Below are positions 3,474 to 23,416 of a DNA stretch of 64,000 bases, piece after piece (the stretch's first letter is position 1; every line of letters begins with the position of its first letter). A program made the translations under genes and the position numbers. The notes below the pieces were generated by a model that searched no databases, had not been told where the DNA came from, and worked only from the letters and a program-made list of their open reading frames with translations. Origin of the DNA: Acidimicrobiales bacterium (GTDB lineage: Bacteria > Actinomycetota > Acidimicrobiia > Acidimicrobiales > UBA8190); the NCBI GenBank assembly GCA_035531755.1, contig DATKSK010000003.1:62001-126000 (forward strand). Reading direction: 5' to 3'.

Positions 3474-3479
3474 ACGGTA
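3474..3479 (-). promoter_or_regulatory. Possible mtrA -10 element
   Basis: TACCGT on the minus strand, 26 bases before the mtrA ATG, fits the TANNNT form seen at many genes here. It sits just after a hairpin that could end the upstream transcript. No convincing -35 is visible. Confidence 0.4.
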
Positions 3480-3482
3480 GGT

Positions 3483-3500
3483 GGCGCCTTCCGGGGCGCC
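3483..3500 (-). terminator. Hairpin after the solute-binding protein gene
   Basis: GGCGCC, a six-base spacer, and GGCGCC again form a self-complementary hairpin 29 bases beyond the stop of the minus-strand solute-binding gene and just before the proposed mtrA -10. There is no T-run. It may separate the two transcription units. Confidence 0.35.
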
Positions 3501-3528
3501 CGGGCCTGCCGTGCGGTACCGGCGACGG

Positions 3529-5214: not shown

Positions 5215-5308
5215 GGTCCCTACCCCCTTCGGGGCGCCTTCGAGGATTGCCACCAGGTTGCGCCCTCCACCGGGCTGGACAATAGCGTCGGAGCGGCCGC
5301 GAGACGGG

Positions 5309-5314
5309 TAGCGT
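5309..5314 (+). promoter_or_regulatory. Leaderless-type -10 for xerC
   Basis: TAGCGT ends six bases before the ATG at 5321, which would place the transcript start at or next to the start codon. No Shine-Dalgarno sequence is present. It lies in the 106-base gap between two divergent genes. Confidence 0.6.
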
Positions 5315-5320
5315 GGATCG

Positions 5321-6241: not shown

Positions 6242-6249
6242 GGGGAGGC

Positions 6250-7107
6250 GTGACGACGGAAGACGACGGCGGGACCGCACGCCTGTGGGCCGAGTACAAG
6301 GAGAACGGTGACCGTCGTACCCGCGACCAGCTCATCGTCCTGTACTCGCCGCTGGTGAAGTACGTGGCGGCGCGGGTCGCGGTCGGGCTTCCCCAGCACG
6401 TCGACGGGGCCGATCTCGTGAGCTATGGGATCATCGGCCTGATCGACGCCATCGACCGGTTCGACCCGGTGCGGCAGGTCAAGTTCGAGACCTACGCCAT
6501 CCCCCGCATCCGGGGGGCCATCATCGACGAGCTGCGTGCCATCGACTGGGTGCCGCGCTCGGTCCGGGCCAAGGCCCGCGCCGTCGAGCAGGCGTACGCC
6601 TCGCTCGAGGCCACGCTGCTGCGGACGCCGACCGACGCCGAGGTGGCGACCGAGCTGGAGATGTCGGTGTCGGACCTGCAGGACATCCTGCGGCAGATCT
6701 CCTTCGTGGGGGTCGCCGCCCTCGACGAGGTGTTCATGGTGGGCGGCGACCGTACGGACCGGACGACGCTCGGCGACACCATCCCCGACGCAACCCCCGG
6801 GCCCGTGGCCATGTTCGAGGACAAGGAGTCGAAGGAGATCCTCGCCCAGGCGATCATGCAGCTGGGCGAGCGCGAGCGGACCGTCCTGTCGCTCTACTAC
6901 TACGAAGGCCTCACGCTCGCCGAGATCGGCGAGATCCTCGGCGTCACCGAGAGCCGCGTGTGCCAGATCCACACCAAGGCGGTCCTGCAGCTGCGGGCAC
7001 GCCTGAGCGACCGCTCGCCCGACGGCACCGACACCCGGGGCCGGGGTCGAGCCTCCGGTGGCCGCCGTGGCCAGCGGCCGAGCACGAGCGTGGCCGCCAC
7101 CGGCTGA
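6250..7107 (+). CDS. WhiG/FliA-type RNA polymerase sigma factor
   Basis: 285 residues from GTG 6250, eight bases after xerC, with GGGGGAGG directly before it. Sigma-70 group 3 layout: region 2 (about 20-100) with DLVSYGIIGLIDAIDRFDP and FETYAIPRIRGAIIDELR, region 3 (about 105-180) and region 4 (about 215-265) with the LTLAEIGEILGVTESRVCQI helix-turn-helix. The spacing and motifs match sigma-28 (FliA/WhiG), which directs motility or sporulation genes depending on the organism. No flagellar gene or anti-sigma gene is visible here, so the regulon cannot be inferred. The last 30 residues are a basic, Gly/Arg-rich tail. Confidence 0.88.
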   Translation: MTTEDDGGTARLWAEYKENGDRRTRDQLIVLYSPLVKYVAARVAVGLPQHVDGADLVSYGIIGLIDAIDRFDPVRQVKFETYAIPRIRGAIIDELRAIDWVPRSVRAKARAVEQAYASLEATLLRTPTDAEVATELEMSVSDLQDILRQISFVGVAALDEVFMVGGDRTDRTTLGDTIPDATPGPVAMFEDKESKEILAQAIMQLGERERTVLSLYYYEGLTLAEIGEILGVTESRVCQIHTKAVLQLRARLSDRSPDGTDTRGRGRASGGRRGQRPSTSVAATG

Positions 7108-7172
7108 GCTGACCAGGCGGCACCGGGGCCGTCCGGGTCGCCGCCCCCCCGCGCGTGACCACGGGCGCCCGT

Positions 7173-7201
7173 GTGACGCCCCGCGGGCCGTCGGTTACCA
7201 T
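7173..7201 (+). promoter_or_regulatory. Candidate rpsB promoter
   Basis: GTGACG (7173-7178), a 17-base spacer and TACCAT (7196-7201) make a plausible housekeeping promoter. A start near 7208 would leave a leader of about 110 bases before rpsB, enough for ribosomal-protein autoregulation, although I do not recognise a defined S2-binding structure. The rest of the 213-base gap shows nothing else. Confidence 0.5.
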
Positions 7202-7320
7202 GGCCCGGTCCCCGCCGTCCCGGCGGGGCGCGACACCACACCGAAGCACCCGGGCGCGTCCAACGGTCGCCCCAGCAGGGGCGTAGCGCCGGGGAAGCAC
7301 AACCGATGGGAGGACCAGCC

Positions 7321-8304
7321 GTGGCCGTTGTCACGACCCGGCAGCTGCTGGAGGCCGGAATGCATTTCGGTCACCAGACGCGCCGTTGGAACCCGAAGAT
7401 GCGCCGCTACATCCTGGGCGAGCGCAACGGGATCTACATCATCGACCTCAAGAAGACCCTCCTGGGTCTCGAGGAGGCCTACTCCTACGTGCGGGACCTG
7501 GTCGCCAAGGGCGGCATCCTGCTGTTCGTGGGGACGAAGAAGCAGACCCAGGGCCCCATCGCCACGTACGCCCGGGCGTGCGGCATGCCGTACGTCAACG
7601 AACGGTGGCTGGGCGGGATGCTGACCAACTTCGCCACCATCTCGTCTCGCGTGGGGAAGCTGCGTGAGTACGAGGGGATGGAGCGCGCCGGCGACTTCGA
7701 GGCCATGCCGAAGAAGGAGGCGCTGCGCCACCGCCGCGAGCTGGAGAAGCTCCGCCGGAACCTCGGCGGCATCCGGGACCTGGACAGGCTGCCCGACACC
7801 ATCTTCGTGATCGACACGAAGAAGGAGCACATCGCCGTCACCGAGGCCAACAAGCTCGGCATGCCGATCGTCGCCGTGGTCGACACCAATTGCGACCCAG
7901 ACGTGGTCTCGTACGTGATCCCGGGGAACGACGACGCCATCCGGTCCGGTGCCCTCATGTGCCGCGTCCTGGCCGAAGCCGTCATCGAGGGGCGGTGGGT
8001 CGCCGAGCACCGCTCGGCCGCCCAGCCGGCTCCGCCACCGCCACCGCCCGGCTCGGCACCCCGGCGCTCCCCGCGGCCGGGCCCGGCCCCGGCTGCTTCC
8101 GGTGAGACGCCGGCTGCCGCGCCCGCCGCCGAGGCTGCGCCCAGCGCCGAGGCTGCGCCCAGCGCCGAGGCCGCGCCCGCCCCCGAGGCCGCGCCCGCCC
8201 CCGAGGCCGCGCCCGCCCCCGAGGCCGCCCCACATGCCGAGGCCGCGCCCGATGCCGAGGCCGCACAGCCCGTCGAGCCGACCGCGGCGACGGACGAGGG
8301 TTGA
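7321..8304 (+). CDS. rpsB: 30S ribosomal protein S2 (uS2)
   Basis: 327 residues from GTG 7321, chosen because GGGAGGA lies seven bases upstream and the protein then begins as usual with a [10 protein letters not shown] segment. The S2 domain occupies about 1-235, with the [20 protein letters not shown] and [17 protein letters not shown] signatures. S2 sits at the 30S head-body junction and helps recruit S1. Beyond residue 240 is a roughly 85-residue tail that is first Pro-rich and then built of Ala/Pro/Glu hexapeptide repeats. This makes it much longer than a typical S2 (about 240-280). Followed two bases later by tsf. Confidence 0.97.
8119..8262. repeat. rpsB: Eight 18-bp tandem repeats in the rpsB tail
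   Basis: Eight in-frame 18-base units of the form gcg ccc (agc/gcc) (gcc/ccc) gag gcc encode A-P-x-x-E-A hexapeptides. Several neighbouring copies are identical, indicating recent copy-number change. Confidence 0.92.
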
Positions 8305-8306
8305 CG

Positions 8307-9101
8307 ATGGCCGCCTTCACCGCCAAGGACGTCCAGGCCCTGCGCCGCGCCACCGGCGCCGGGATGCTCGACTGCAAGCGCGCTCTCGAAGAGGCCGACG
8401 GTGACCTCGAGAAGGCCAAGCAGTGGCTGCGCGAGCAGGGGAAGGCCGGTGCCGCCAAGCGGTCCGACCGCGAGGCGTCGCAGGGCGCGGTGGCACTCGC
8501 CGTCGCCGGGCGCGCCGCCGCCATCGTGGAGCTGCGGTGCGAGACCGACTTCGTGGCCAAGGCGGAGAGCTTCGTGAACCTCACCGACGAGCTCGCCCAG
8601 CTGGTGGCGGACGAGGGCGAGGGCGCGGCGGGGGAGCGGGCCGAAGCCATCGACGACCTGAAGACGACGCTCAAGGAGAACATCTCGGTGGGCAGGGTCG
8701 TCCGTTTCGGGGTCGGCGACGACTCCGTCGTCGGGACCTACCTCCACATGCAGTCGGGCCGCGGCGTGAATGCCGTCCTCGTGGAGCTGCGAGCGGGGAG
8801 CGGGGAGCTGGCGCACGACCTCGCCGTCCACGTGGCGTTCGCCCGGCCGCAGTACCTCCGGCGCGAGGACGTCCCGGCGCAGGAGGTCGAGGCCGAGCGG
8901 GCCACCGTGGAGACCATCTCCCGCAACGAGGGCAAACCCGAAGCCGCGCTCCCGAAGGTCGTCGAGGGGCGCATGAACGGATGGTTCAAGGAGCGGTGCC
9001 TGCTCGAGCAGGCCTACGCCAAGGACGAGAAGCGCACGATCGCCGACCTCGTCGGGAGCGCCGAGGTCGTGCGTTTCGCCCAGGTCGTTGTCGGCGGCTG
9101 A
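8307..9101 (+). CDS. tsf: Elongation factor Ts
   Basis: 264 residues. The N-terminal UBA-like domain carries [14 protein letters not shown], followed by the EF-Ts core with the CETDFVAK signature near residue 76. It catalyses GDP release from EF-Tu. ATG 8307 is taken as the start; an in-frame TTG two codons earlier overlaps the rpsB stop and is less likely. Cotranscription with rpsB is near universal and is supported here by the two-base gap. Length and motifs are normal. Confidence 0.97.
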
Positions 9102-9129
9102 CATCGCCGGGGGCGATGCGGTCGTACCG

Positions 9130-9879
9130 GTGACCGTGGGCGCGTCACCGGCCGCCGACGTGCCCGCGCGTCGGCGGGTCGTGCTCAAGATGTCCGGCGA
9201 GGCGCTGGCGTCGTCGGCGTCCGACGAGACGATCGACGCCGCCGTCGTGGAACGCTTCGCCCGTGAGATCACCCTGGCGCGCGCCGAGCTCGACCTCGAG
9301 CTGGCCGTCGTCGTCGGTGGCGGCAACATCTGGCGGGGGAGCATCGGCGAGGGCCAGGGCCTCGACCGGACGACGTCGGACACCATGGGCATGCTCGCCA
9401 CGGTGATCAACGCGCTCGCCCTCCAGGACGCCGTCGAGCGCCACGGTCAGCCGACCCGGGTGCTGTCGGCCATCCACATGGCCGAGGTGGCCGAGCCCTA
9501 CATCCGGCGCCGTGCCATCCGGCACCTCGAAAAGGGGCGGGTGGTCATCTTCGCCGCCGGCATGGGCAACCCCTACTTCACGACGGACACCTCCGCCGCC
9601 CTCCGGGCGGCCGAGATCGAGGCCGAGGTCCTGCTGAAGGGGACCCATTCCGGCGTGGACGGGGTCTACAGCGCCGACCCCAAGCTCGACCCCTCGGCCC
9701 GGCGCTACGACGAGCTCGCCTTCATGGACGTGGTCAACCAGGACCTTCGGGTCATGGACATGACGGCCATCACCTTCTGCAAGGACAACCGACTGCCCGT
9801 CCTGGTGTTCGACCTGATGGGCCCCGGAAACCTGCGCCGTGCGCTGGCCGGCGAGGAGATCGGTACGCTGATCCGGTGA
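9130..9879 (+). CDS. pyrH: Uridylate kinase (UMP kinase)
   Basis: About 249 residues of the amino-acid kinase family. Seen are the nucleotide-binding LKMSGEAL near the start, [10 protein letters not shown], the [16 protein letters not shown] helix and the [11 protein letters not shown] segment typical of hexameric bacterial UMP kinase. It converts UMP to UDP in pyrimidine synthesis. The start is uncertain: GTG 9130 is chosen to give a usual N-terminus, GTG 9136 is nearly equal, and TTG 9088 would overlap tsf by 14 bases. None has a good Shine-Dalgarno sequence. Order rpsB-tsf-pyrH-frr is conserved in bacteria. Confidence 0.93.
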
Positions 9880-10448
9880 TCGACGACGATCTCTCCGGGG
9901 TGGTGCTCGACGACGCCCGCGAGCGCATGGAAAAGGCGGCCGCGCACACGCAGGCGGAGTTCGCGGGCGTGCGCAGCGGGCGGGCGACCTCCGGGCTCGT
10001 CGAGCACCTCCGGGTGGACGTGTACGGCGCCGAGGCCGAGCTGCGCACCATCGCCGGCCTGAGCGTGCCCGAGGCCCGGCTCCTCGTGATCTCCCCGTAC
10101 GACAAGTCGACCCTGGCCAGCATCGAGAAGGCGATCCAGGCCTCCGACCTCGGGATCACCCCGTCCAACGACGGCGCCGTGATCCGGTTGGCGTTCCCGC
10201 CGCTCACCGAGGAGCGGCGCAAGGAACTGGTCAAGGTCGTCCGGCACAAGGCGGAGGAAGGGCGCGTGGCGGTGCGCAACCTCCGGCGGGCCGCCCGCCA
10301 CGAGCTCGAAGGGCTCGAGCGCGACGGGGAGCTGTCGTCCGACGGGCTCGAGCGCGCCGAGCGGGAGCTCGACAAGCTCACTCACGACATGGTGGCCGCC
10401 ATCGACAAGCTCCTTGCCCACAAGGAGCACGAGCTCCTCGAAATCTGA
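9876..10448 (+). CDS. frr: Ribosome recycling factor
   Basis: 190 residues, slightly over the usual 185. The start GTG overlaps the pyrH stop as GTGA. The RRF fold is clear: helix 1 with [19 protein letters not shown], the domain II beta region (about 30-105) with [19 protein letters not shown], and the final helices with [24 protein letters not shown] split by short breaks. Together with EF-G it separates post-termination ribosomes. Last of the tightly packed rpsB-tsf-pyrH-frr run; cdsA starts 40 bases on. Confidence 0.96.
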
Positions 10449-10487
10449 GGCAGCCGGCCCGGGTTCTTGGGGCGGCGGGGAGGCGAC

Positions 10488-12317
10488 GTGGACGATCGAG
10501 ACGAATACGACCCGGAGGCCGAGGATCGGGGTGAGCCGGTCACCGAGCGCGTGCGGATCATCGGCGCGCAGCCGGCCGGCCAGGTCGCCGACGCCCTGGC
10601 CGCCGCGGCGCGGGCCGGCGAGGGCGGGCCCGAGGACTTCGAGCCGGCGCAGCTGGCGCTCGGGGCGACGGCGCCCGGTGACACGGCGCTCGGGGGCGAC
10701 GCCCCGGACCTCCCGGCCGGGGCCGTGACGCCGGCGACCTCGACATCGATGGACGCGCCGTCCCGGGACACGTCATCGATGGACACGACATCCCGGGACG
10801 CACCGCGCCCCGCTGCGGTCGAGGACCCGTCCGCCCTGCACCCCGAGGAGGCGGGGCGGTCCGCGCCGTCGGGCCGCAACGGCGGCGACCCGCTCGAGCC
10901 CGGTGCCCAGCCGCTCCGGCTGGCGGAGCCACCCGCCGGGGTCCCCGACATGCCGCACTGGACCGACCCGCCGACGGGCCAGGTCCCCGCCGTGCTCGAC
11001 CGGCGTGGCGACGACGACGACAGCGAGGGACAGTGGTCGGCCGTGGGCGACACCGGCCCCGCCTGGCGCGAGCACAAGCACGAATGGGACGACAGTGGCT
11101 TCGATCCGTCGCTCCTCGCCGACGACGAGACCAGGGTCGGCGCGATGGAGGAGACGCCGGTGGAGGAGCGCCGGCCGTGGGAGTTCGCCGACCTGGGGGC
11201 GGCGCCGGCGGCCGACGACCGGGCGCCTGCCGCGCCCGAGGGCACGGCCGGTGCCGCCTGGTGGGACGACGCCGACGGCGCCGACGGCGCTGACGGGGCC
11301 GCCGGGGCGGCGCGCCCGGGCGCAGCCGCCGCCGAGGACCGGATCACCCCGGAGGTGGCCGACCGGGGGGTGGCCTCGATCAGCTCGTCCCCGCTGCGCG
11401 TCGGCGCCCGGGACCAGATGACCGCCGCTCCCTCCGCCGAACCGCACCCCCGGGGGGTACGGACCCGCGTGCCCCCGCCCGGCGCACCGCGAGACGGGTC
11501 GGGCCGCAACATGCCGGTGGCCATCGCCACGGGGGTGGGGATCGCGCTGCTGGCGGTGATCTGCTTCGAAGTGGGCAGCGTCGCCACCCTGGTCCTGGCC
11601 ACCGTGGTCGTGGCCCTGTCGGCGGCCGAGTGCTACGCCGCCCTGCGGCGCAGCGGCCGCCGGCCCGCCACGTTCCTCGGGTTGGTGGCGACCGTCGGCG
11701 TCATGGTGGCGGCGTACGCCAAGGGGGTGGCGGCCCTGCCCCTGGTGCTCGTTCTCGTGGTGATCGCGTCCATGGTGTGGTACCTGGTCGGCGCCGAGCG
11801 TGGTTCCGCGGTCGAAGGGATCGCCGCCACGGTGCTCGGGTTCGCCTGGGTGGGCCTCCTGGGCTCGTTCGCCGCCCTCATGCTGGCGCCGAGCCAGTAC
11901 CCGCACCGCCACGGCGTGGCCTTCGTGCTCGGCGCCATCGTCGCCACCATCGGTGCCGACGTCGGAGCGCTGGCCGTCGGGAGCTGGCTGGGGCGTCGCC
12001 CGCTGGCGCCGCACGTGAGCCCCAACAAGACGTGGGAGGGGCTGATCGGCGGTGCGGTGGTGGCCATCGCCCTGTCGGCGGCGGTCACCGGCCAGGTCCA
12101 CCCGTGGACGGTGCCGAAGGCGGCTCTGCTCGGCGTCGTCGTGGCGGTGGTGGCCCCGCTCGGCGACCTGTGCGAGTCGCTCGTCAAGCGCGACCTCGGG
12201 TTGAAGGACATGGGATCGATGCTCCCGGGACACGGCGGTGTGCTCGACCGAGTGGACGCACTGTTGTTCGTGCTCCCGGCGACCTACTACCTCGTCCGGG
12301 TGCTCAACCTCGGGTGA
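10488..12317 (+). CDS. cdsA: Phosphatidate cytidylyltransferase with a very long N-terminal extension
   Basis: 609 residues from GTG 10488, with GGGGAGG five bases before it. Residues 1 to about 335 are acidic, Ala/Asp/Pro-rich and probably disordered, including two copies of a 30-base repeat encoding a SMDAPSRDTS-like decapeptide near 85-105. The last 270 residues are the CdsA membrane domain with about seven hydrophobic helices. It contains the family signature S-L-V-K-R-D-x4-K-D-x-G-S-M-L-P-G-H-G-G-V-x-D-R-x-D near the end. The enzyme makes CDP-diacylglycerol from CTP and phosphatidate for phospholipid synthesis. Typical CdsA is 260-310 residues, so the extension is the odd part. Confidence 0.93.
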   Translation: MDDRDEYDPEAEDRGEPVTERVRIIGAQPAGQVADALAAAARAGEGGPEDFEPAQLALGATAPGDTALGGDAPDLPAGAVTPATSTSMDAPSRDTSSMDTTSRDAPRPAAVEDPSALHPEEAGRSAPSGRNGGDPLEPGAQPLRLAEPPAGVPDMPHWTDPPTGQVPAVLDRRGDDDDSEGQWSAVGDTGPAWREHKHEWDDSGFDPSLLADDETRVGAMEETPVEERRPWEFADLGAAPAADDRAPAAPEGTAGAAWWDDADGADGADGAAGAARPGAAAAEDRITPEVADRGVASISSSPLRVGARDQMTAAPSAEPHPRGVRTRVPPPGAPRDGSGRNMPVAIATGVGIALLAVICFEVGSVATLVLATVVVALSAAECYAALRRSGRRPATFLGLVATVGVMVAAYAKGVAALPLVLVLVVIASMVWYLVGAERGSAVEGIAATVLGFAWVGLLGSFAALMLAPSQYPHRHGVAFVLGAIVATIGADVGALAVGSWLGRRPLAPHVSPNKTWEGLIGGAVVAIALSAAVTGQVHPWTVPKAALLGVVVAVVAPLGDLCESLVKRDLGLKDMGSMLPGHGGVLDRVDALLFVLPATYYLVRVLNLG

Positions 12318-12372
12318 GGACCGGGGGAGGGGGCACGCGGCGCGCGCCCACCCGGAATCCGGGTGACGGCCG

Positions 12373-13530
12373 GTGAGGGTCAGCCTGGTCGGGTCGACCG
12401 GGTCCATCGGCACCCAGGCCGTCGAGGTCCTGTCCACCGAGCCCGAGCGCTTCGAGGTGACCGGGCTGGCGGCGGGCTCCGCCGTCGAGGCCCTCGCCGC
12501 CCAGGCGCGCCGGCTGCGACCCGAGGTGGTGGCCATCGGCGACCCCACCCTGGCCCGGGCGTTGTCGGCCGCGGTGCCGCCCGGGACCGAGGTGCTCGTC
12601 GGGCCCGAGGGCCTGGCCGAGGTGGCCCGCCGCGGTGACGTCGTCGTCAACGCCGTGGTCGGCTTCGCCGGCCTGCCCGTCACCCTGGCGGCGCTCGAGG
12701 CGGGGCGGCGGCTGGCGCTCGCCAACAAGGAGTCCCTCATCGCCGGCGCCCCCGTGGTGGCCCGGGCCCGGCGCACCCCCGGAGCGGAGATCGTCCCCGT
12801 GGACTCCGAGCACTGCGCGCTCCACCAGTGCCTGCGGGCCGGGAACGGGCCCGACGAGGTGGCCCGCCTGGTGCTGACGGCCAGCGGGGGGCCCTTCCGG
12901 GGGCGGACGCGCGCCGAGCTGGCGGGGGTGTGCGTGGACGAGGCCCTGGCCCATCCGACCTGGAAGATGGGCCCGAAGATCACCGTGGACTCGTCCACCT
13001 TGATGAACAAGGGGCTCGAGGTCATCGAGGCCCACGAGCTGTTCGGGATCGGCTACGACCGGATCGCGGTGATTATCCACCCCCAGTCGGTCGTACACTC
13101 GATGGTGGAGTTCATCGACGGATCGACTGTGGCGCAACTATCCGAGCCCGACATGCGACTGCCGATCGGGTACGCGCTCGGCTACCCCGAACGCCTCCAC
13201 CACCCCTTCGGTGCCATCGACTGGTCGGCGTTGGGGCGGCTCGACTTCGAGCAGCCCGACCGGCAGGTCTTCGCGTGCCTGGACCTGGCCGAGCAGGCGG
13301 GCCGGGCGGGAGGGCTGGCGCCGGCCTGGCTCAGCGGCGGCAACGAGGTCGCCGTGGCCGCCTTCCTCGCCGGCCGCATCGGCTGGGGCGCCATCGCCGA
13401 GGTCGTGGCCGACACGCTGGACGCCTGCGACCAGGTGCCCGTGGCCGACGCCGCCGACGTGGTGGAGGCGGACCGGCGGGCCCGCGAGTGCGCCGAGCGC
13501 TCGGTGCGACGACGCGAGCGGGCCGCGTGA
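12373..13530 (+). CDS. dxr: 1-deoxy-D-xylulose 5-phosphate reductoisomerase
   Basis: 385 residues from GTG 12373. Seen are the NADPH-binding VSLVGSTGSIGTQ at the N-terminus, NKESLIAGAP, VDSEHCALHQCL with the metal-binding D and E, TASGGPFRG, and the KMGPKITVDSSTLMNKGLE motif. It commits DXP to the methylerythritol phosphate route to isoprenoids; ispG, a later step, lies 1.4 kb on. The stop overlaps the start of the site-2 protease gene as GTGA. All catalytic motifs are intact and length is typical. Confidence 0.97.
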   Translation: MRVSLVGSTGSIGTQAVEVLSTEPERFEVTGLAAGSAVEALAAQARRLRPEVVAIGDPTLARALSAAVPPGTEVLVGPEGLAEVARRGDVVVNAVVGFAGLPVTLAALEAGRRLALANKESLIAGAPVVARARRTPGAEIVPVDSEHCALHQCLRAGNGPDEVARLVLTASGGPFRGRTRAELAGVCVDEALAHPTWKMGPKITVDSSTLMNKGLEVIEAHELFGIGYDRIAVIIHPQSVVHSMVEFIDGSTVAQLSEPDMRLPIGYALGYPERLHHPFGAIDWSALGRLDFEQPDRQVFACLDLAEQAGRAGGLAPAWLSGGNEVAVAAFLAGRIGWGAIAEVVADTLDACDQVPVADAADVVEADRRARECAERSVRRRERAA

Positions 13531-14834
13531 GCAGCCCCCCCGTCGGCACCGCCCACCCCGACCGCACCCCGCGCCCCACCCCGCCCGCCCGCCCCCACCG
13601 GGCCGTGCCCGCGCCCGCACCGGACCAGCGTCCGGCGGTGGCCCGGCTGGTGGCCGTGGTGGTGGCGCTGGTCGTGCTGGCCGTGGTCACCCACACCACG
13701 GCGGTCCTCGTCGTCGTGGTGGCGCTGATCGTCATGATCATGCTGCACGAGCTCGGCCACCTCCTCACGGCCAAGTGGGGCCACATGAAGGTCACCGAGT
13801 ACTTCCTCGGCTTCGGGCCCCGCCTGTGGTCGATCCGGCGCGGCGAGACCGAGTACGGGATCAAGGCCATCCCGGCCGGGGGGTACGTGAAGATCCTCGG
13901 CATGACCAGCGCCGAGGAGGTCGACCCCGCCGACGAGCCGCGTACCTACCGCCAGCAGCCCTTCCACAACCGGCTGCTCGTCGCCGTGGCGGGCTCCGCC
14001 ATGCACGGGGTCATGGCGCTGCTGCTGCTGTGGGGACTCGCCGTGTTCGTCGGGGTGCCGCAGGCCGATGCCGTCGCCGTGACCGGCTATTCGGCCATCG
14101 GCCACAGCGCCGACCCGGCGCGCGCCGCGGGCATCCGACCCGGGGACGTCGTGGTGAGCGTGGCTGGCAGGGCCGTGCATTCGCCCCAGGACCTGCAGCG
14201 CGTCATCTCGCACAGCGCGGGCCGATCGGTGACGGTGGTGGTGGAGCGCCACGGCCGGCGCCGCAGCCTCGACGTGACCCCGCAGGCCGACCCGGCGGTG
14301 AAGGGCGCCAACGGGCGCATCGGCGTCGTCATCGCCAATCCCGTGGCGACGAGCAACCCGGCGGTGGGGGTCGTGCGCGCCGGGCAGATGTTGGCCCGGG
14401 ACGTGTCCCTCTCCTTCCAGGGCATCGGCCAGACGTTCTCGGCGAGCGGGATCGCCAGCTACTTCCACGACCTGACCAACGCCCATGCCGCCGACCAGGC
14501 GGCCCGGACCGGCGACCGCGTCTCCTCGATCTACGGCGCGGCCCGTTTCGCCGTGCAGGGGGCGCGGGCGGGCGCCTACTGGCTCATCAACGTCCTGGTC
14601 CTGATCATCGTGTTCGTCGGGATCCTGAACCTGTTCCCGATGCTGCCCCTCGACGGGGGCCACGTGCTCATCGCCGTGTACGAGCGCATCCGCAGCCGGC
14701 GCGGCCGCATGTACCACGCGGACGTCAACAAGCTCGCACCCGTCGCCTACGCGTTCGTCCTGCTGCTCGGGTTCATCGTCCTGTCGTCGCTGTACCTCGA
14801 CATCACGCACCCCATCAAGAACCCGTTCCAGTAG
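13527..14834 (+). CDS. rip: Site-2 intramembrane metalloprotease (RseP/Rip family, M50)
   Basis: 435 residues from GTG 13527, overlapping dxr by four bases. After a Pro-rich N-terminus (1-38), a membrane segment (41-73) leads into the zinc motif HELGH (H74, E75, H78). A PDZ domain follows (about 185-255), and a later membrane segment carries the third zinc ligand in LDGGH (D376). Such proteases cut membrane-embedded anti-sigma factors and envelope proteins to send signals inward. The location between dxr and ispG is the same as for Rip1 in mycobacteria. The fold and metal ligands are complete. Confidence 0.94.
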   Translation: MSSPPVGTAHPDRTPRPTPPARPHRAVPAPAPDQRPAVARLVAVVVALVVLAVVTHTTAVLVVVVALIVMIMLHELGHLLTAKWGHMKVTEYFLGFGPRLWSIRRGETEYGIKAIPAGGYVKILGMTSAEEVDPADEPRTYRQQPFHNRLLVAVAGSAMHGVMALLLLWGLAVFVGVPQADAVAVTGYSAIGHSADPARAAGIRPGDVVVSVAGRAVHSPQDLQRVISHSAGRSVTVVVERHGRRRSLDVTPQADPAVKGANGRIGVVIANPVATSNPAVGVVRAGQMLARDVSLSFQGIGQTFSASGIASYFHDLTNAHAADQAARTGDRVSSIYGAARFAVQGARAGAYWLINVLVLIIVFVGILNLFPMLPLDGGHVLIAVYERIRSRRGRMYHADVNKLAPVAYAFVLLLGFIVLSSLYLDITHPIKNPFQ

Positions 14835-14894
14835 GCCCGGACCCGTGTCCCCCGTACCGCCCGACGTGTTCCCAGCAGACAGGGAGACCACCTG

Positions 14895-16139
14895 ATGGCC
14901 CGCCAGACCCAGGTCGCCGCCGTCCGCCGCACCACCCGGCAGATCCACGTGGGAACGGTCGCCGTCGGCGGCGGGGCACCGATCTCGGTGCAGTCGATGA
15001 CCACCACCAAGACGGCGGACGTGGAGGGCACGCTGGCGCAGATCTACGCCCTGGCGGCGGCCGGCGCCGACATCGTGCGGTGCACGTGCAACGAGCAGCA
15101 GGCCGCCGAGGGGCTCGCCCACATGGTGCCGCGCTCACCGGTCCCCCTGATCGCCGACATCCACTTCCACCACGAGATGGCGCTGGCCGCGCTCGAGGCC
15201 GGCGTCCAGGGACTGCGGCTCAACCCCGGGAACCTCCGCAAGGAGGCCGAGATCAAGCAGGTCGCCCAGGAGGCGAAGGACCGCGGCGTGCCCATCCGGA
15301 TCGGGGTGAACGCGGGGTCGCTGCACCCCGAGCTCTACAAGCGCTTCGGCGGCGCCACCCCCGAGGCCCTGGTGGAGTCGGCGCGCATGGAGCTCGCCTA
15401 CTTCGACGAGGTGGGGTTCGACGACGTGAAGATCTCGGTGAAGGCGTCGTCGGTGCCGCTCATGATCGCTGCCTACCGCCTGGCCGCGGAGACGTTCGAC
15501 CACCCGCTCCACCTCGGGGTCACCGAGGCGGGCCCGCCCCCCGCCGGCCTGGTGAAAGGGACGGCGGGCATCGGCACCCTGCTGGCCGAGGGGATCGGCG
15601 ACACCATCCGCTACTCGCTCACCGCCGACCCGGTCGAGGAGGTCCGCGCCGGGCGTCAGCTGCTCGAGGCGTTGGGGCTGCGCGAGCGCAAGAACGTCGA
15701 CCTCATCGCCTGCCCGTCGTGCGGGCGCGCCGAGATCGACGTGATCGGCGTGGCCCGGGCCGCGCAGGAGGCGCTCGAGTCGCGGGAGCTGCCCATCCAG
15801 GTGGCGGTGATGGGCTGCGTGGTGAACGGCCCCGGTGAGGCGCGCGAGGCGGATCTCGGCATCGCGGCGGGACGGCACCGCGGCCACCTGTTCATCAAGG
15901 GGAAGATCGTCAGGGTCGTCCCCGAGGCCGACATGGTGGCTGCCCTGGTGGAAGAGGCCGAGAAGCTCGTGGCCGAAGGGGTCGACGCCCGTCTGGCGGC
16001 CGCCGACGCCGGAGCCGAGGCCGAGGCCGAGGCCGATCGGCGGAGCCTGCTCGAGTCCAAGGGCGCCGACGCCAACCACAGCGCCCAGAAGGTCGAGCTC
16101 ATCCGGCGGACGGTCGACGAGGAGCGCGAGCGTCAGTAG
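14895..16139 (+). CDS. ispG: 4-hydroxy-3-methylbut-2-enyl diphosphate synthase (GcpE)
   Basis: 414 residues. An AGGGAGA Shine-Dalgarno sequence lies seven bases before the ATG. TIM-barrel part begins with the PISVQSMTTTKTADVEGTL segment. The iron-sulfur domain has the CPSCGR pair and the third cysteine in CVVNGPGE. It is the 4Fe-4S enzyme that reduces MEcPP to HMBPP in the MEP pathway. The last 45 residues form a Glu/Ala-rich, probably helical tail beyond the usual end. Its stop overlaps the end of the convergent proS gene by seven bases. Confidence 0.97.
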   Translation: MARQTQVAAVRRTTRQIHVGTVAVGGGAPISVQSMTTTKTADVEGTLAQIYALAAAGADIVRCTCNEQQAAEGLAHMVPRSPVPLIADIHFHHEMALAALEAGVQGLRLNPGNLRKEAEIKQVAQEAKDRGVPIRIGVNAGSLHPELYKRFGGATPEALVESARMELAYFDEVGFDDVKISVKASSVPLMIAAYRLAAETFDHPLHLGVTEAGPPPAGLVKGTAGIGTLLAEGIGDTIRYSLTADPVEEVRAGRQLLEALGLRERKNVDLIACPSCGRAEIDVIGVARAAQEALESRELPIQVAVMGCVVNGPGEAREADLGIAAGRHRGHLFIKGKIVRVVPEADMVAALVEEAEKLVAEGVDARLAAADAGAEAEAEADRRSLLESKGADANHSAQKVELIRRTVDEERERQ

Positions 16140-17554
16140 GCGCGGCCCACCACGGCCACGAGCTCGGCGTCGTCGGAGCCCTCGCCGGGGCCCGGCAGCG
16201 TGCCGTCGGGCCGCATCAGGAGGCGCACCGACATGCCGGCGTCGTTGAGCCGGGACTCGCCATCCGCGCCGAGCGCGGTCGCCGGGACCACGGCGAAGCC
16301 GGTGCGTGCCGCCTCCTCGGCGTCCCCGAGCGTGGTCACCTCCAACGTCGCCTGGCGCCGGCGCTCGGTGGCCTCGGCGAGCAGGGCGGCCTGGGCGGCG
16401 TCGAGCGCGGCGCGCACCGCCACCTCGAGCCCCCCCAGCGCGACCTTGTCCTTGGTGCCCGTGTCGCGGCGCACGAGCACGGCTTCGCCGGCGTCGAGCT
16501 CGCGCGGGCCGACCTCGACGCGCACCGGGACGCCCTTCAGCTCCCAGTCGACCACCCGGCGCCCGAACGACGTGTCGGTCCGGCCGTCGAGCTGGACGCG
16601 TAATCCGGCCTCCGACAGCCCGGCCGCCATGGCCGCCGCCTTGTCGCCCGCGCCGTCCTCGTCGCGGACGAGGAGGACCACGACCTGCACGGGCGCGAGC
16701 CGCGGGGGGACGCGCAGGCCGTCGTCGTCGCCGTGCGCCATCACCAGCGCGCCCATGAGGCGGGTGGAGGCCCCCCACGACGTCTGCCAGACGTTGACCT
16801 CGGTCCCCGTCTCGTCGAGGAAGGCGGTGCCGAAGGCCCGGGAGAAGTTCTGGCCGAGCTCGTGGCTCGTGCCCATCTGCAGCGCCTTGCCGTCGCGCAT
16901 CATGGCCTCGCACGTCCAGGTGGCGGTGGCCCCGGAGAAGCGCTCGCGTTCGGTCTTGCGGCCCATCAGGATGGGGATGGCGAGGACGTTCACCATGAAG
17001 TCCTCGTAGACGTCGCGCATGATCCTGAGCGCGAACTCCCGCGCCTCGCCCTCGGTGGCGTGCGCGGTGTGCCCTTCCTGCCACAGGAACTCGGTGGTCC
17101 GCAGGAAGAGGCGGGGGCGCAGCTCCCAGCGCACGACGTTGGCCCACTGGTTGATGAGCAGCGGCAGGTCCCGGTAGCTCTGGATCCACTTGGCGAAGTA
17201 GGCGTTGACGATGGTCTCGCTGGTGGGGCGCACGACGACCGGCTCGTCGAGCTCCTTGCCACCACCGTGCGTCACGACGGCGAGCTCGGGGCTGAACCCC
17301 TCGACGTGGGCGGCCTCCTTGTGGAGGTAGCTCTCGGGGATGAACAGCGGGAAGTACGCGTTCGAGACGCCGGCGTCCTTGATGCGGGCGTCGATCTCGG
17401 CCTGCATGCGCTCCCAGATGGCGTACCCGTACGGTCTGATCACCATGGTCCCGCGGACGGGGCCGTTGTCGGCCAGCTCCGCCTTCGCCAGGACGTCCTG
17501 GTACCACTGGGGGAAGTCGTCAGCCTGTGCGGTGAGGACGCGTGCGCGTGGCAT
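16133..17554 (-). CDS. proS: Prolyl-tRNA synthetase, archaeal/eukaryal-like (type 3)
   Basis: 473 residues. Class II core with motif 2-like NVVRWELRPRLFLRTTEFLW followed by QEGHTAHAT, and motif 3 near GDDDGLRVPPRLAP. The YFPLFIPES and HVEGFSPELAVVTHGGG segments, the lack of the long bacterial editing insertion, and a C-terminal tyrosine mark the archaeal/eukaryal-like type also found in Thermus. An anticodon-binding domain follows (about 285-390). The C-terminal domain that normally binds zinc has no cysteines, so the metal site is lost. It charges tRNA-Pro. A hairpin and a TAGCAT hexamer upstream suggest its own promoter. Confidence 0.93.
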   Translation of the reverse strand: MPRARVLTAQADDFPQWYQDVLAKAELADNGPVRGTMVIRPYGYAIWERMQAEIDARIKDAGVSNAYFPLFIPESYLHKEAAHVEGFSPELAVVTHGGGKELDEPVVVRPTSETIVNAYFAKWIQSYRDLPLLINQWANVVRWELRPRLFLRTTEFLWQEGHTAHATEGEAREFALRIMRDVYEDFMVNVLAIPILMGRKTERERFSGATATWTCEAMMRDGKALQMGTSHELGQNFSRAFGTAFLDETGTEVNVWQTSWGASTRLMGALVMAHGDDDGLRVPPRLAPVQVVVLLVRDEDGAGDKAAAMAAGLSEAGLRVQLDGRTDTSFGRRVVDWELKGVPVRVEVGPRELDAGEAVLVRRDTGTKDKVALGGLEVAVRAALDAAQAALLAEATERRRQATLEVTTLGDAEEAARTGFAVVPATALGADGESRLNDAGMSVRLLMRPDGTLPGPGEGSDDAELVAVVGRAY

Positions 17555-17562
17555 GGCGCAGG

Positions 17563-17568
17563 ATGCTA
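17563..17568 (-). promoter_or_regulatory. Near-leaderless -10 for proS
   Basis: TAGCAT on the minus strand ends eight bases before the proS ATG at 17554. It follows directly after a strong hairpin, so proS probably starts its own transcript with little or no leader. Confidence 0.5.
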
Positions 17569-17570
17569 CG

Positions 17571-17592
17571 GCCTCGGGCAGGCGCCCGAGGC
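17571..17592 (-). terminator. Perfect 9-bp hairpin between the oxidase-like gene and proS
   Basis: GCCTCGGGC (17571-17579) and GCCCGAGGC (17584-17592) pair perfectly around a four-base loop, 11 bases beyond the stop of the minus-strand PPOx-like gene. No T-run follows. The stability and position favour termination or transcript-end protection. Confidence 0.55.
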
Positions 17593-17602
17593 CGGTGAGG
17601 GC

Positions 17603-18055
17603 TCAGCGACCGTCGTCCCCGGCGCGTGGGGGACTGTGCCGGGCGTCATGGACGATGCGCCGGCCCGACACGAACTCGGGGCGGATCGCCACCACGTGCT
17701 CGCGGGGGCCCGGCGCCCAGGGCCGCACGGGCAGGTGCTCGGCGCGCGCCAGCAGGGCGGGGTCCCTGATCTCGTCGGCCAGCCCGACCACCAGGACGCT
17801 CCACCCCTCGTGGTAGAGGGGGTCGATGTCGTCGACCTCGAAGGCGACGACGGCGTTGTGAACGGCCGCGTCGAGCTTGGTCCCCGACCCTGTCCGGAAG
17901 ACGACCGTCCCGTCGAGCAACCCGTAGTTCACGGGGAACACGGCCGGGACGGCCCCGATCGACACCGCCACCCGGCCCACGCCGCGGTCGCCGATCAGCG
18001 CGAGGCATTCGTCTTCGTCGAGGGGGGCGATGCCCTCGTCGAACATCGGCGGCAT
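17603..18055 (-). CDS. Pyridoxamine 5'-phosphate oxidase-like flavin-binding protein
   Basis: 150 residues from ATG 18055, with GGGGA just upstream. It shows the split-barrel pattern of the PPOx-related family: CLALIGDRGVGRVAVS at the start, AVFPVNYGLLDGTVVFRT, then VAFEVDDIDPLYHEGWSVLVVG. Members bind FMN, F420, biliverdin or heme, and many actinobacterial ones are F420 or FMN reductases. The specific cofactor cannot be decided from this sequence. It precedes proS on the same strand by 48 bases but a hairpin separates them. The upstream extension of the frame has no conserved features. Confidence 0.8.
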   Translation of the reverse strand: MPPMFDEGIAPLDEDECLALIGDRGVGRVAVSIGAVPAVFPVNYGLLDGTVVFRTGSGTKLDAAVHNAVVAFEVDDIDPLYHEGWSVLVVGLADEIRDPALLARAEHLPVRPWAPGPREHVVAIRPEFVSGRRIVHDARHSPPRAGDDGR

Positions 18056-18344
18056 GTCCCCAGACTGGGCGCTGGCCGCGGTGGCGTCATAGGGGCCAAG
18101 GTCACGAACCCCGGGCGGGTTCGGCGCGCCGTCGCCGGGATCGGGCTCCCGCGGTGCTGGCCCCCGGGGTCGGGACGTCGGGCACGGTCGGGCTCCGTCC
18201 GACCGCGGCCCGGGCTCGTCCCGCCACGGGCGGGCATCGTCGAGGCCCGGTGGGGCCCGGCGGTGCCGCCCGACCGGTGGCCGTCGGGTCCCGTCGACGG
18301 GGTGTCGGGGCCGTGTTCGGCGCCGAGGGGCGCGCGAGGCTGGC

Positions 18345-18353
18345 TGGTATACT
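18345..18353 (+). promoter_or_regulatory. Extended -10 promoter of the rimP-nusA-infB run
   Basis: TG, one base, then TATACT (18348-18353) is an excellent extended -10 element, and no -35 is seen or required. Initiation near 18360 gives a leader of about 110 bases that contains the hairpin at 18392. Confidence 0.65.
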
Positions 18354-18391
18354 TCCTCCGCCGTTCGAACCGGGTGGAGATGTGCGTCGAA

Positions 18392-18421
18392 GCGTGGGCG
18401 GGCAGCCCACGCTTTTGCTTT
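18392..18421 (+). terminator. Intrinsic terminator/attenuator in the rimP-nusA leader
   Basis: GCGTGGGC (18392-18399) and GCCCACGC (18405-18412) form a perfect eight-pair stem with a five-base loop, followed by TTTTGCTTT. This is the only hairpin with a clear T-run that I noted in the window. It lies between the promoter and rimP, so it would act as an attenuator upstream of nusA, consistent with feedback by NusA or readthrough control. Confidence 0.72.
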
Positions 18422-18471
18422 CACAGCCGGTGCGGGTCGGCGACGGTGTGACGCTGGAGGGACCGAGGGAG

Positions 18472-19023
18472 GTGGACGACAAGGTGGAAGACGAGCTCAC
18501 CGAACTGCTCGCGTCCACCGTCGAGCCCCTGGGCCTCGAGCTCGTCGAGGTCGACCGCCGCGCCGGCTCGGTGCGCGTCGTGGTGGACCGGCCCGGTGGC
18601 GCCGATCTCGAAGCCCTGGCCGAGGCCACACGGGCCGTGTCCGTCGTGCTCGACGACCACGACCCGTTCCCGGGACGGCGCTACACCCTCGAGGTGTCGA
18701 GCCCCGGCGTGGAGCGGCCGTTGCGGACCCCGGCCCAATTCGCCCGTGCCGTCGGTGAGAAGGTGAGCGTGCGCACCGTCGCCGGCGGCCAGGGGGAGCG
18801 CCGCGTCACGGGGCGGCTGACGGCCGTCGACGAGGACGGCTTCGTCCTACAGGGCGAGGACCTGCCGGACGGCGAGCGCCGCCTCGGCTACGCGGAGGTC
18901 GAGCGGGCGCGCACGGTCTTCGACTGGGGAACGTCGTCCCGCCCGGGCGGCCCGGGGCGCGCGCCGCGCCAGGCTGCCCGAGCGCCGCGGGCGGCCGGGA
19001 GGAAGAAGGTGGCGACGCCATGA
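18472..19023 (+). CDS. rimP: Ribosome maturation factor RimP
   Basis: About 183 residues. The N-terminal domain has the LGLELVEVDRR strand and an R-V-V-V-D-R-P-G-G segment, the middle has LEVSSPGVERPL (the family signature), and the C-terminal SH3-like domain ends near residue 150. It helps 30S assembly. Several in-frame GTG codons are possible (18430, 18448, 18472, 18484); 18472 is chosen for length. A basic Arg/Ala/Pro tail runs into an ATGA overlap with nusA. First gene of the rimP-nusA-ylxR-infB run. Confidence 0.92.
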   Translation: MDDKVEDELTELLASTVEPLGLELVEVDRRAGSVRVVVDRPGGADLEALAEATRAVSVVLDDHDPFPGRRYTLEVSSPGVERPLRTPAQFARAVGEKVSVRTVAGGQGERRVTGRLTAVDEDGFVLQGEDLPDGERRLGYAEVERARTVFDWGTSSRPGGPGRAPRQAARAPRAAGRKKVATP

Positions 19024-20318
19024 GCAAGGCCAACTTCGAGTTCCTCGACGCCTTGGGCCAGATCGCACGCGACAAGGGGATCTCGGTCGAGACCCTCCTC
19101 GACGCCCTGGCCAACGCGCTGGTCGCCGCCTACAAGCGGCGCCCGGGGGCGGCCGAGGAGGCCGTCGTCACCGTCGACCCCGAGTCGGGTGAGATCCGTG
19201 TCTACGGGCAGGAGCTCGACGAGGACGGCAACGTCATCCGTGAGTGGGACGACACGCCCGACGACTTCGGCCGCATCGCCGCCCAGACCGCCAAGCAGGT
19301 CATCTTCCAGCGCATCCGGGAGGCCGAGCGCGACCTGAAGTACGAGGAGTACGCCGGGCGCGAGGGCGACATCGTCACGGGCATCGTGCAGCAGACCGAC
19401 AACCGCTACACGCTCCTCGACCTGGGCAAGGTGGAGGCGCTGCTGCCCCAGGCGGAGCAGGTCCCCTACGAGCGCTACGAGCACGGCGCGCGCCTGAAGG
19501 CGTACATCGTGGAGGTCCGCAAGACGACCAAGGGCCCCCAGATCGTGGTGAGCAGGAGCCACCCCGGGCTGGTCAAGCGCCTCTTCGAGCTCGAGGTACC
19601 GGAGATCTCCTCCGGTGTGGTGGAGATCAGGGCGGCGGCGCGCGAGCCCGGACACCGGACGAAGATCGCCGTGTGGTCCAACGACCCGAACGTCGACCCC
19701 GTCGGGGCGTGCGTCGGCGCCCGGGGCTCGCGGGTCCGCATGGTGACCAACGAGCTGCGCGGCGAGCGCATCGACGTCGTGCCCTTTGCCGACGACCCGG
19801 TCGAGTTCATCCAGGCCGCGCTGCAGCCGGCGCGCGTGCGCGAGGTCCGTCTCGACGACGAGACCGGGACCGCCACCGTGGTCGTGAGCGACTACCAGCT
19901 GTCGCTGGCCATCGGCAAGGAGGGCCAGAACGCCCGCCTGGCGGCCCGGCTCACCGGCTGGCGGGTCGACATCAAGAGCGAGACCCAGCTCGCCGAGGAA
20001 GAGGCGGGGTACGGCGAGGAATGGGCGGAAGGGGAGTGGGTCGAGAACGAGGCCGGGGAGATGGTGTGGCAGCCGGCCGAGGGCGGCGAGGCCGTGTCCG
20101 CGACGGAGTGGTCCCGCGCCGCGGCGGGTGGCGGCCCGGACGCGCCCCCCTCCCCGGGGGAGGAGCCCAAGGCCGAGGAGCCCAAGGCCGAAGAGCCCAA
20201 GGCCGAGGAGCCCAAGGCCGAGGAGCCGGTGCCCGACGCCGACGCGACCGAGGAGAAGCCCGACGAGTCGGTGCAGGACGAGCAGAAGCCGGACGACGAG
20301 CCGGAGCGCACGGCATAG
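19020..20318 (+). CDS. nusA: Transcription termination/antitermination factor NusA
   Basis: 432 residues. N-terminal polymerase-binding domain (1-125), S1 domain (about 130-200) with EGDIVTGIVQQTD, then KH1 and KH2 (about 225-345) with VGACVGARGSRVRMV and LAIGKEGQNARLAARLTGW. These bind polymerase and nascent RNA to control pausing and termination. The C-terminal acidic repeats of proteobacterial NusA are absent, as usual in Actinobacteria. Instead the last 85 residues are an acidic Glu/Pro/Lys tail with four EEPKA pentapeptides. Start overlaps rimP as ATGA; stop TAG overlaps the putative ylxR start. Confidence 0.97.
   Translation: MSKANFEFLDALGQIARDKGISVETLLDALANALVAAYKRRPGAAEEAVVTVDPESGEIRVYGQELDEDGNVIREWDDTPDDFGRIAAQTAKQVIFQRIREAERDLKYEEYAGREGDIVTGIVQQTDNRYTLLDLGKVEALLPQAEQVPYERYEHGARLKAYIVEVRKTTKGPQIVVSRSHPGLVKRLFELEVPEISSGVVEIRAAAREPGHRTKIAVWSNDPNVDPVGACVGARGSRVRMVTNELRGERIDVVPFADDPVEFIQAALQPARVREVRLDDETGTATVVVSDYQLSLAIGKEGQNARLAARLTGWRVDIKSETQLAEEEAGYGEEWAEGEWVENEAGEMVWQPAEGGEAVSATEWSRAAAGGGPDAPPSPGEEPKAEEPKAEEPKAEEPKAEEPVPDADATEEKPDESVQDEQKPDDEPERTA
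20160..20219. repeat. nusA: Four 15-bp tandem repeats in the nusA tail
   Basis: Four in-frame copies of gaggagcccaaggcc, differing by one base in the third copy, encode EEPKA pentapeptides. Confidence 0.93.
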
Positions 20319-20659: not shown

Positions 20660-23416
20660 TTGCCGAAGAAGATCCGCGTCTACGAGTTGGCCCGTGAGCT
20701 CGGCCTGTCGAACAAAGAGGCACTCGACCTCTGCGTGTCGTTGGGCATCGGGGTGAAGAGCCACTCGTCCTCGATCGAGGACGCTCAGGCCGATCGCGTC
20801 CGTCGCAAGGCCGACAGCGAGGGGCTTCGCCGCGCCGTGCAACCGGAGGAGCCGGAGGAGCCCAAGCCGGCCCGCCCGACCTCCTCGCGTCCCGCGCCCG
20901 ACGAGGACCGGGCCGTCCCGCCGGCCGGCCCGTCCACGGGCACCGCGGGGCCCCCGCCGCCCCCGCGCCAGCGCCTCGTGACCAGCCGTCCGGCCAGTGA
21001 GGTCTCCCTACCGCCGCCGCCGTCGTCCGCCCGCCCGACGCCCCCGCCGGCCCGCCCGGTACCGCCGCGTACGGCCCCGCCCTCGGTGGCCCCGTTGGCG
21101 CCGGCCGCCGCCCAGGCGCCGCCCCGCCCGGCACCCGCACCAGCGGCACCAGCGGCACCCACGGCACCAGCGGCACCAGCGGCACCAGCGGCACCAGCGG
21201 CACCAGCGGCACCAGCGGCACGGCCGCCGATGAGCTCGTCGGGACGGCCCATCCCACCCCCACCCGGGCCCCCCCGGTCGAACTCGGGACGGCCTATCCC
21301 GCCGCCCCCGGGCCGGCGGGCGCCGGCCGGCAGTCCGCGCCCCGGCGGCGGTCCCGGTGGTGGCGGGCGCCCCGGCATGGGCGGTCCGCGCCCCGGCGGC
21401 GGCCCGCCCGGTCGCGGAGGTGTCGGTGCAGGAGGGTTCGGCGGCCGCGGCGGTCCGGGTGGTGCGGGAGGGTTCGGCGGCCGCCCCGGCGGGGGGCCGC
21501 CCCCGCCCGGCCTGCGCGGTGGGCCCGGTGGGCGGGGTCGACCCCCGCAGCGCCGGCCCCGACGCCGGCGGCGCAATCTCGAGGAGCTCGAGCCCACCCA
21601 GCTCACCACCTACACGCCGTCGAACGCCCCGGTCCCCGATTCCGAGGTCATCGTGGAGCGGGGGTTGACCCCGCGCGAGCTCGGGCCCAAGCTCAACCGG
21701 TCGGCCGGTGACGTCATCCGCTTCCTGTTCCTGCAGGGAGAGGTGGTCACCGCCACCCAGTCACTGAGCGACGACATGATCGAGCTGTTCGCGGCCGAGA
21801 TCGGGGCCCGGATCCGGCTCGTCGACCCCGGTGAGGAGCAGGAGGCCGAGCTCCAGGCGAAGTACTTCGAGGAGGAAGAAGAAGAGCGCGAGGAGGACCT
21901 CCGGCCCCGGCCACCGGTGGTGACGGTGATGGGCCACGTCGACCACGGCAAGACGCTCCTGCTCGACCGCATCCGCTCCGCCAACGTGGTGGCGGGGGAG
22001 GCCGGCGGGATCACCCAGCACATCGGGGCGTACCAGGCGGAGGCGGGCGGGCGCCGCATCACGTTCATCGACACGCCGGGCCACCAGGCGTTCACCGCCA
22101 TGCGGGCGCGCGGTGCCGAGGTGACCGACATCGTCGTGCTCGTGGTGGCGGCCGACGACGGGGTCATGCCCCAGACCGTGGAGGCCATCGACCACGCGCG
22201 GGCGGCCGACGTTCCCATCGTCGTGGCCGTGAACAAGATCGACCGGGCGGACGCCAACGTCGACCGGGTGCTCCAGCAGTTGTCGGAGCGCGGCCTCACT
22301 CCCGAGGCGTGGGGCGGCGACACCATCGTGTGCGAGGTGTCGGCCCTGCAGGGGACCGGCATCGACGACCTGCTCGAGCACCTGCTGGTGGTCGCCGACC
22401 TCGAGGAGCTCCAGGCGAGCCCCGAAGCCCGCGGCCGCGGCGTGGTGCTGGAGGCCAACCTCGAGTCGGGGCGCGGCCCCGTCGCCACCGTCATCGTGCA
22501 GAGCGGGACGCTGCGCGTGGGCGACCCGGTCGTCGCCGGCGCGGCGTGGGGCAAGGTGAAGGCCCTCATCGACGACCACGGCGACCAGGTGAAGGAGGCC
22601 CCGCCGTCCACGCCCGTGCAGGTGCTGGGGTTCTCAGAGCCCCCGGCCGCCGGCGACGAGTTCCGGGTCACATCCGACCAGACGACGGCCCGCACCATCG
22701 GCGAGGCCCGGGAGCGCCGCTACCGGGTGGCGGGGCACGCACCGTCACCGACCGCCCCCGGGGCCAAGCTCGAGGACCTGTTCGAGCAGATCCAACGGGG
22801 CGAGGCGGCGACGCTCAACCTGATCCTGAAGGCCGACGTCCAGGGCACGCTCGAGGCCATCACCGACAGCCTGCGCAAGCTGGAGCGGCCGGACGTCAAG
22901 CTGAGCTTCGTGCACCGCGGTGTCGGAGGGATCACCGAATACGACGTCCAGCTGGCGGTGGCGTCGAACGCCACCATCATCGGCTTCAACGTCCGACCCG
23001 ACCGGCGGGCACGCGAGATGGCCGGCGAGCGGGGCGTGGGCATCCGGACCTACGAGGTGATCTACAAGCTGCTCGAGGACATCGAAGCGGCCATGGTGGG
23101 CATGCTCACCCCGGAGTTCGAGGAGGTCGTCACCGGCGAGGCCGAGGTGCGCGAGGTCTTCCGTGTCCCCCGGGTGGGCGCGGTGGCGGGCTGCTTCGTC
23201 CGCGATGGCGTGATCACCCGTGGCTCGAAGGTCCGGTTCCTGCGTGAGGGCGTGGTGATCTGGAAGGGGTCGATCACCTCGCTGCGCCGGTTCAAGGAGG
23301 ACGTGCGCGAGGTGCAGGCCGGGTTCGAGTGCGGTATCGGGCTGTCGGACTTCCAAGACCTGCACGGCGGCGACATCATCGAGACCTTCGAGGAGCGGGA
23401 GATCCCCCGCACCTGA
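20660..23416 (+). CDS. infB: Translation initiation factor IF-2
   Basis: 918 residues from TTG 20660. The N-terminal IF2N helix bundle ([20 protein letters not shown]) is followed by a Pro/Ala- and then Gly/Arg-rich linker (about 60-310), and a second IF2N-like unit near 335-385. The G domain has [13 protein letters not shown] and NKID, and the C-terminal domains bind fMet-tRNA. It delivers the initiator tRNA to the 30S. AGGAG sits only three bases before the TTG, so the spacing is short. The linker carries nine 9-base repeats. Followed by rbfA and truB. Confidence 0.97.
21137..21217. repeat. infB: Nine 9-bp tandem repeats in the infB linker
   Basis: Nine in-frame units of gcaccagcg, seven or more identical, encode an Ala-Pro-Ala run in the linker between N-terminal domains of IF-2. 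Confidence 0.93.

Follow-up and report, generated by a model that had tools for sequence, protein, structure and literature searches.

Results

Organization of the rimP-nusA-infB leader

The window, by which we mean the whole 64 kb stretch of DNA analysed here, carries on its forward strand a rimP-nusA-infB operon, of which rimP, nusA, ylxR and rbfA were confirmed by Pfam and infB was read from its open reading frame. The operon and the elements ahead of it are laid out as follows:

17603-18055, reverse strand: divergent pyridoxamine 5'-phosphate oxidase-like gene (PF12900; start read from the sequence)
18345-18353, forward strand: extended -10 TGGTATACT (TG-G-TATACT), read from the sequence and conserved among relatives
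18360-18421, forward strand: predicted short leader RNA of about 60 bases (its start placed by the -10 and its end by the T tract)
18389-18415, forward strand: terminator hairpin (arms 18390-18399 and 18405-18414, loop 18400-18404; core CGTGGGC/GCCCACG)
18413-18421, forward strand: interrupted T tract TTTTGCTTT, read from the sequence
18467-18474, forward strand: likely ribosome-binding site GGGAGGTG of rimP, by sequence
18484-19023, forward strand: rimP (likely GTG start; alternative start at 18473; RimP_N and DUF150_C above cut-off)
19020-20318, forward strand: nusA, the gene that the hairpin tracks (NusA_N, S1 and KH domains)
20660-23416, forward strand: infB, encoding IF2 (named from the translation of its open reading frame)

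The -10 element reads TG-G-TATACT, in line with the TG-N-TATACT of the first-pass annotation of this DNA, and 36 bases separate its end from the 5' arm of the hairpin. A scan of window positions 1-20000 found no -35/-10 pair of the sigma-70 type, so the promoter call rests on the extended -10. In the hairpin, a 5' arm AAGCGTGGGC (18390-18399) and a 3' arm GCCCACGCTT (18405-18414) enclose the loop GGGCA (18400-18404) and form ten perfect pairs, extended by G18389.U18415, with a minimum free energy of -20.5 kcal/mol and a z score of -5.6. The annotation had described a perfect eight-pair GC-rich hairpin: the hairpin lies where it was placed, but its pair count is ten. The T tract TTTTGCTTT precedes the first gene, rimP, as had also been noted, and 69 bases lie between the hairpin and the likely rimP start (GTG at 18484). 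Since the gene at 17603-18055 is divergent, the hairpin cannot serve as its terminator.

Two minor features of this region were also seen. A CGTTC/TTCGA motif stands directly after the predicted transcription start, at 18360-18370 and in the leaders of relatives, with CGTTC present in 12 of 14 leaders from the window's own family (shuffles 1.0) and in 10 of 23 from other families (shuffles 2.3). At 16133-16139, the 3' ends of ispG (forward) and proS (reverse) overlap by seven bases.

Uniqueness in the window and specificity in the genome

By our own criterion for a terminator hairpin (at least 8 perfect pairs, a loop of 3-8 bases and six or more T in 9 bases), the leader is the sole site on both strands of the 64 kb, listed twice because two loop sizes fit, which bears out the earlier remark that it is the only hairpin with a T-run in the window; one-strand scans of 20 simulated sequences (first-order Markov) yielded no site at all. 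A stock terminator scanner missed the leader hairpin, probably because it folded the first T's into the stem, and returned five matches elsewhere in the window, a yield not above that from shuffles. The bare pattern CGTGGGN{3,12}CCCACG is not specific in the window's own genome (18 sites, against 15 for a reversed control), and covariance models were therefore used. With one of these, R1, the top match in the genome is the leader site (E 1e-9).

Across the R1 matches outside rimP or nusA leaders in G031, G019, G045 and G014 (loci L175-L178), we found no convincing second target. One of them, L177 in G045, has at about 917-952 a GUGGGC hairpin with a T tail, flanked by small genes of pilin-like type (R1 E 0.0019), and a weaker second hairpin 378 bases from the first; both are probably ordinary terminators.

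Conservation within the order

Among 60 sampled relatives from the window's order, 54 gave a rimP match (a weak one in G048, E 1e-6); of the remaining six, G024, G036 and G049 lack rimP and have the hairpin, in G014 and G026 the contig breaks off at nusA, and G059 gave no match for nusA. Alignment of the leader across related genomes, proposed in the first-pass annotation as a check, recovered the hairpin with covarying pairs: a CGTGG..CC[AG]CG hairpin, by a pattern fixed beforehand, is present in 52 of the 54 rimP leaders and absent from two, L043 and L049. A search that used no motif picked up a strong hairpin and T tail in 50 of the 54 leaders, and in 48 of these the 5' arm contains G[TC]GGG; the reverse strand gave such hairpins in 9 of 54, and shuffled sequences in 8 of 270.

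In an alignment of 51 hairpins (A1, which excludes L026 with its long loop), two-sided changes occur at six of eleven pairs, the outer ones and the innermost, and the middle pairs are constant (C-G, G-C, U-A, with U-G twice, G-C and G-C), a constancy partly imposed by the first search pattern. A T-rich tail with a G/C-rich break at its fifth and sixth positions is common among the 51 aligned relatives, and in several the T tracts are short and interrupted. The promoter is conserved as well: of the 52 leaders with the hairpin, 37 have a -10 that matches at five or more of six positions, its median distance to the CGTGG core being 38 bases, against a single match when a control stretch lying another 150 bases upstream was scanned.

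Distribution in Actinomycetota, Bacillota and beyond

In a draw of 149 genomes from the phylum, RimP_N was found in 122; 103 leaders were fetched and 102 used, the other 19 being excluded. A strong hairpin with a T tail occurs in 83 of the 102 leaders, and in 68 of these the 5' arm contains G[TC]GGG, compared with 17 hairpins (9 with the motif) on the reverse strand, 10 in 510 shuffles (none with the motif) and none in 80 stretches of nusA coding sequence.

A search of named genomes with NusA extended this view, its results covering the best 80 of 591 loci and its hairpin counts those loci with at least 900 bases upstream. Within these best 80, the G[TC]GGG hairpin is the best hairpin in all 21 Bacillota loci, mostly as GAGTGGG..CCCACTC, the GAGTGGG form being found in a Bacillus sp. 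and other Bacillota, and it is likewise the best hairpin in 32 of 39 other loci, mostly Acidimicrobiia-like or unassigned Actinomycetota. Alignment A3 was selected by G[TC]GGG, so that invariance there holds by construction. None of the 14 loci among the best 80 that are named to Actinomycetes genera or families has a GUGGG/CCCAC hairpin, and inspection of the leaders of six of the 14 likewise found no hairpin of this type; one Actinomycetes-named locus, L271, was let through by the automatic filter on a G.U-rich hairpin of another form, 703 bases from nusA. The predicted attenuator control is thus dispensable, because L043 and L049 have rimP but no such hairpin and the 14 named Actinomycetes loci retain nusA without one. 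Three loci titled Acidobacteriota (L205), Bifidobacterium breve (L220) and Acidobacteria (L225) have an Acidimicrobiia-like NusA or leader and are probably mislabelled metagenome-assembled genomes (MAGs).

The hairpin follows nusA in genomes without recognisable rimP

Model R1 finds the hairpin upstream of nusA in G024, G036 and G049, all without a RimP match; no rimP frame intervenes, and the distance to nusA is about 20 bases in G024 and G036 and about 440 in G049, whose locus (L173) possibly holds a decayed rimP. To these three we added 12 rimP-negative genomes from the phylum draw (families f50, f52, f64 and f70) and one locus from an Armatimonadota MAG (L273), giving 16 rimP-less genomes. 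The analysis covered all but seven of the rimP-negative genomes of the phylum draw. Among those covered, a frame resembling rimP precedes nusA in G111, G123, G136 and G146, G113 has an apparent rimP end at a contig edge, and G116 and G157 have no nusA match. No RimP_N or DUF150_C match above cut-off occurs in any of the 16, and sub-threshold matches occur in four for RimP_N and nine for DUF150_C (best 17.4 and 16.9 bits).

A second model, R2, was trained on 81 rimP-linked hairpins, with the loci of the 16 rimP-less genomes excluded, and its top genome-wide match falls just upstream of nusA in all 16, at E values from 5e-5 to 0.14 (the latter in one genome), some of them weak though top-ranked. 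Mapped by parsimony onto a NusA tree with 91 rows, the rimP-less label has to change five times, and well-supported branches force three of these changes; L273 sits on a long branch of this tree. By motif, infB or ylxR lies downstream in 14 of the 16 loci, the sequence ending too early in G024 and G049, and infB directly follows nusA in several of the rimP-less genomes, G036 among them. Judged by its position across these genomes, the hairpin is linked to nusA rather than to rimP. In the open-licence literature that we searched on the rimP-leader, we found no work on Acidimicrobiia or on rimP-less genomes, and within that literature the tracking of nusA by the hairpin after loss of rimP is new.

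Discussion

A probable rimP-leader attenuator and its relation to known systems

The promoter, hairpin and T tract resemble an attenuator known from other bacteria. Naville and Gautheret described the rimP-leader in 2010 as the most widespread attenuator, with a constant stem that was left unexplained and with RimP or NusA as its reader (PMC2965389). The likeness to that description extends to the same operon leader, a G-rich 5' arm and C-rich 3' arm in a GGGc..gCCC stem, a T stretch, the lack of an antiterminator and a short gap to the gene. Our hairpin stands in the 5' leader of rimP-nusA-infB and has a GGGC GGGCA GCCC stem followed by the T stretch TTTTGCTTT, with which the aligned relatives agree; it lies 69 bases from the likely gene start, within the 4-130 bases typical of the kind, the 52 leaders show no antiterminator fold, and model R1 (the bare pattern alone being unspecific) picks it out in its own genome. 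By this layout, the leader hairpin, a predicted terminator, belongs to the published rimP-leader kind. It differs from the published description in its longer core, CGUGGGC/GCCCACG in the window's order, and in its position immediately before nusA in genomes that lack rimP, which makes a name based on rimP misleading. Rfam release 15 gave no match at the gathering cut-off in the window, and with E values up to 10 allowed there were just five matches, all at chance level and none to a model for rimP; RF01770 is Rfam's model of the rimP leader.

Feedback by NusA on this operon has precedents. According to a review (PMC12288461), Mondal et al. reportedly showed in 2016 that B. subtilis nusA is autoregulated by NusA-stimulated termination, at a terminator in the leader of its operon that is proposed to work without an antiterminator. 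The arrangement is similar here; NusA dependence is reported for B. subtilis and proposed for the present leader. For the gbs0413-0418 operon of S. agalactiae, also rimP-nusA-infB with a terminator near its start, NusA feedback has been proposed, and RNA-seq recorded a 31-base terminated RNA (PMC4448216). S. agalactiae belongs to a different phylum, and the leader RNA predicted here has about 60 bases. The metY-nusA-infB operon of E. coli (PMC6511841) likewise has terminators upstream of rimP, and NusA feedback is reported for it; it begins with a tRNA gene and has several promoters and RNase III sites, none of which we found here.

Proposed mechanism and rival explanations

We consider it probable that the leader holds an attenuator of the rimP-leader kind (a premature intrinsic terminator), whose share of termination is most likely set by NusA. 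RNA polymerase would start near 18360 from the extended -10 promoter, and the transcript would form the GC-rich hairpin with its CGUGGGC/GCCCACG stem, followed by the interrupted U tract. Part of the polymerases would halt near 18421 and the remainder read into rimP-nusA-ylxR-infB; NusA would most likely set this share, with more termination when NusA is high and more readthrough when it is low, and would do so without an antiterminator fold. We infer termination at this site, NusA as its driver and the reading of the core as sequence. The first-pass annotation placed an attenuator in the rimP-nusA-infB leader and suggested feedback by NusA or another readthrough control. The sequence evidence supports a directed terminator after a conserved promoter, and the NusA reading is the best available, given the published feedback on the same operon and a hairpin that follows nusA after rimP is lost.

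A different role for the palindrome is improbable: a DNA operator, or a hairpin serving RNA stability or processing, would suit a ten-pair palindrome with a very constant core, but the spacing between the arms varies, the outer pairs covary, and the T tail lies on the operon side (50 of 54 leaders forward against 9 of 54 in reverse). If the hairpin is a terminator, several things might set its strength. For the 31 bases upstream, pairing with the 5' arm does not exceed that in shuffles (mean 5.3 against 5.7 in 52 leaders), which makes an antiterminator unlikely. The window also offers an ATG at 18380 opening a 23-codon frame that runs through the hairpin, with three Cys codons and one Trp codon, as leader-peptide attenuation would use; across 52 relatives, however, the spacing from CGTGG to CC[AG]CG is 6, 7, 8, 9, 10, 13 or 23 bases, so no reading frame is kept through the hairpin. 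With no conserved short frame through the hairpin in these 52 relatives, we rejected a leader-peptide attenuator and give it next to no credence. With antiterminator and leader peptide both unlikely, what remains is that either a protein or the state of the polymerase sets the terminator.

The same attenuator could sense RimP or free 30S subunits instead of NusA, rimP being the first gene and RimP feedback being named as possible by Naville and Gautheret (PMC2965389), but all 16 genomes in which rimP could not be recognised keep the hairpin directly before nusA. RimP is accordingly an unlikely regulator, and we hold this alternative to be highly improbable. Control of the attenuator might instead lie with some other general influence (NusG, Rho, ppGpp, IF2 or growth rate), NusA being only the product that is limited. 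In rimP-less loci whose downstream sequence shows it, infB remains in the operon, so that IF2 could be the effector, and NusG is known to aid intrinsic termination in B. subtilis (PMC8060035); NusA feedback has nonetheless been reported on this very operon in other bacteria, and we regard control by such a factor as rather unlikely. NusA as the regulator fits the observations and has the support of earlier publications on this operon, and the tracking of nusA by the hairpin after rimP loss is the best new support for it.

Implications

Where rimP was lost and the hairpin stayed in front of nusA, nature has in effect carried out a deletion experiment, and its outcome argues against RimP as the reader. 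The predicted control extends to GC-rich Actinomycetota, where few intrinsic terminators are predicted, and the named Actinomycetes that we examined, which have no such hairpin, would be poor models for rimP-leader control. We tentatively suggest, as a possibility somewhat short of an even chance, that hairpin-nusA-infB is a conserved unit in which the GUGGG/CCCAC stem would act as a sequence-specific landing site for NusA (or NusA-RNA polymerase), a terminator that reads the level of NusA, kept in Actinomycetota, Bacillota and an Armatimonadota MAG and discarded by Actinomycetes.

A variant of the stem was seen in one family of the phylum draw, f49, in which all eight leaders (L087, L094, L095, L096, L101, L102, L105 and L117) carry an inverted stem, GCCCCT..GGGGC, that resembles the inverse motif of Naville and Gautheret for a second terminator in Gammaproteobacteria.
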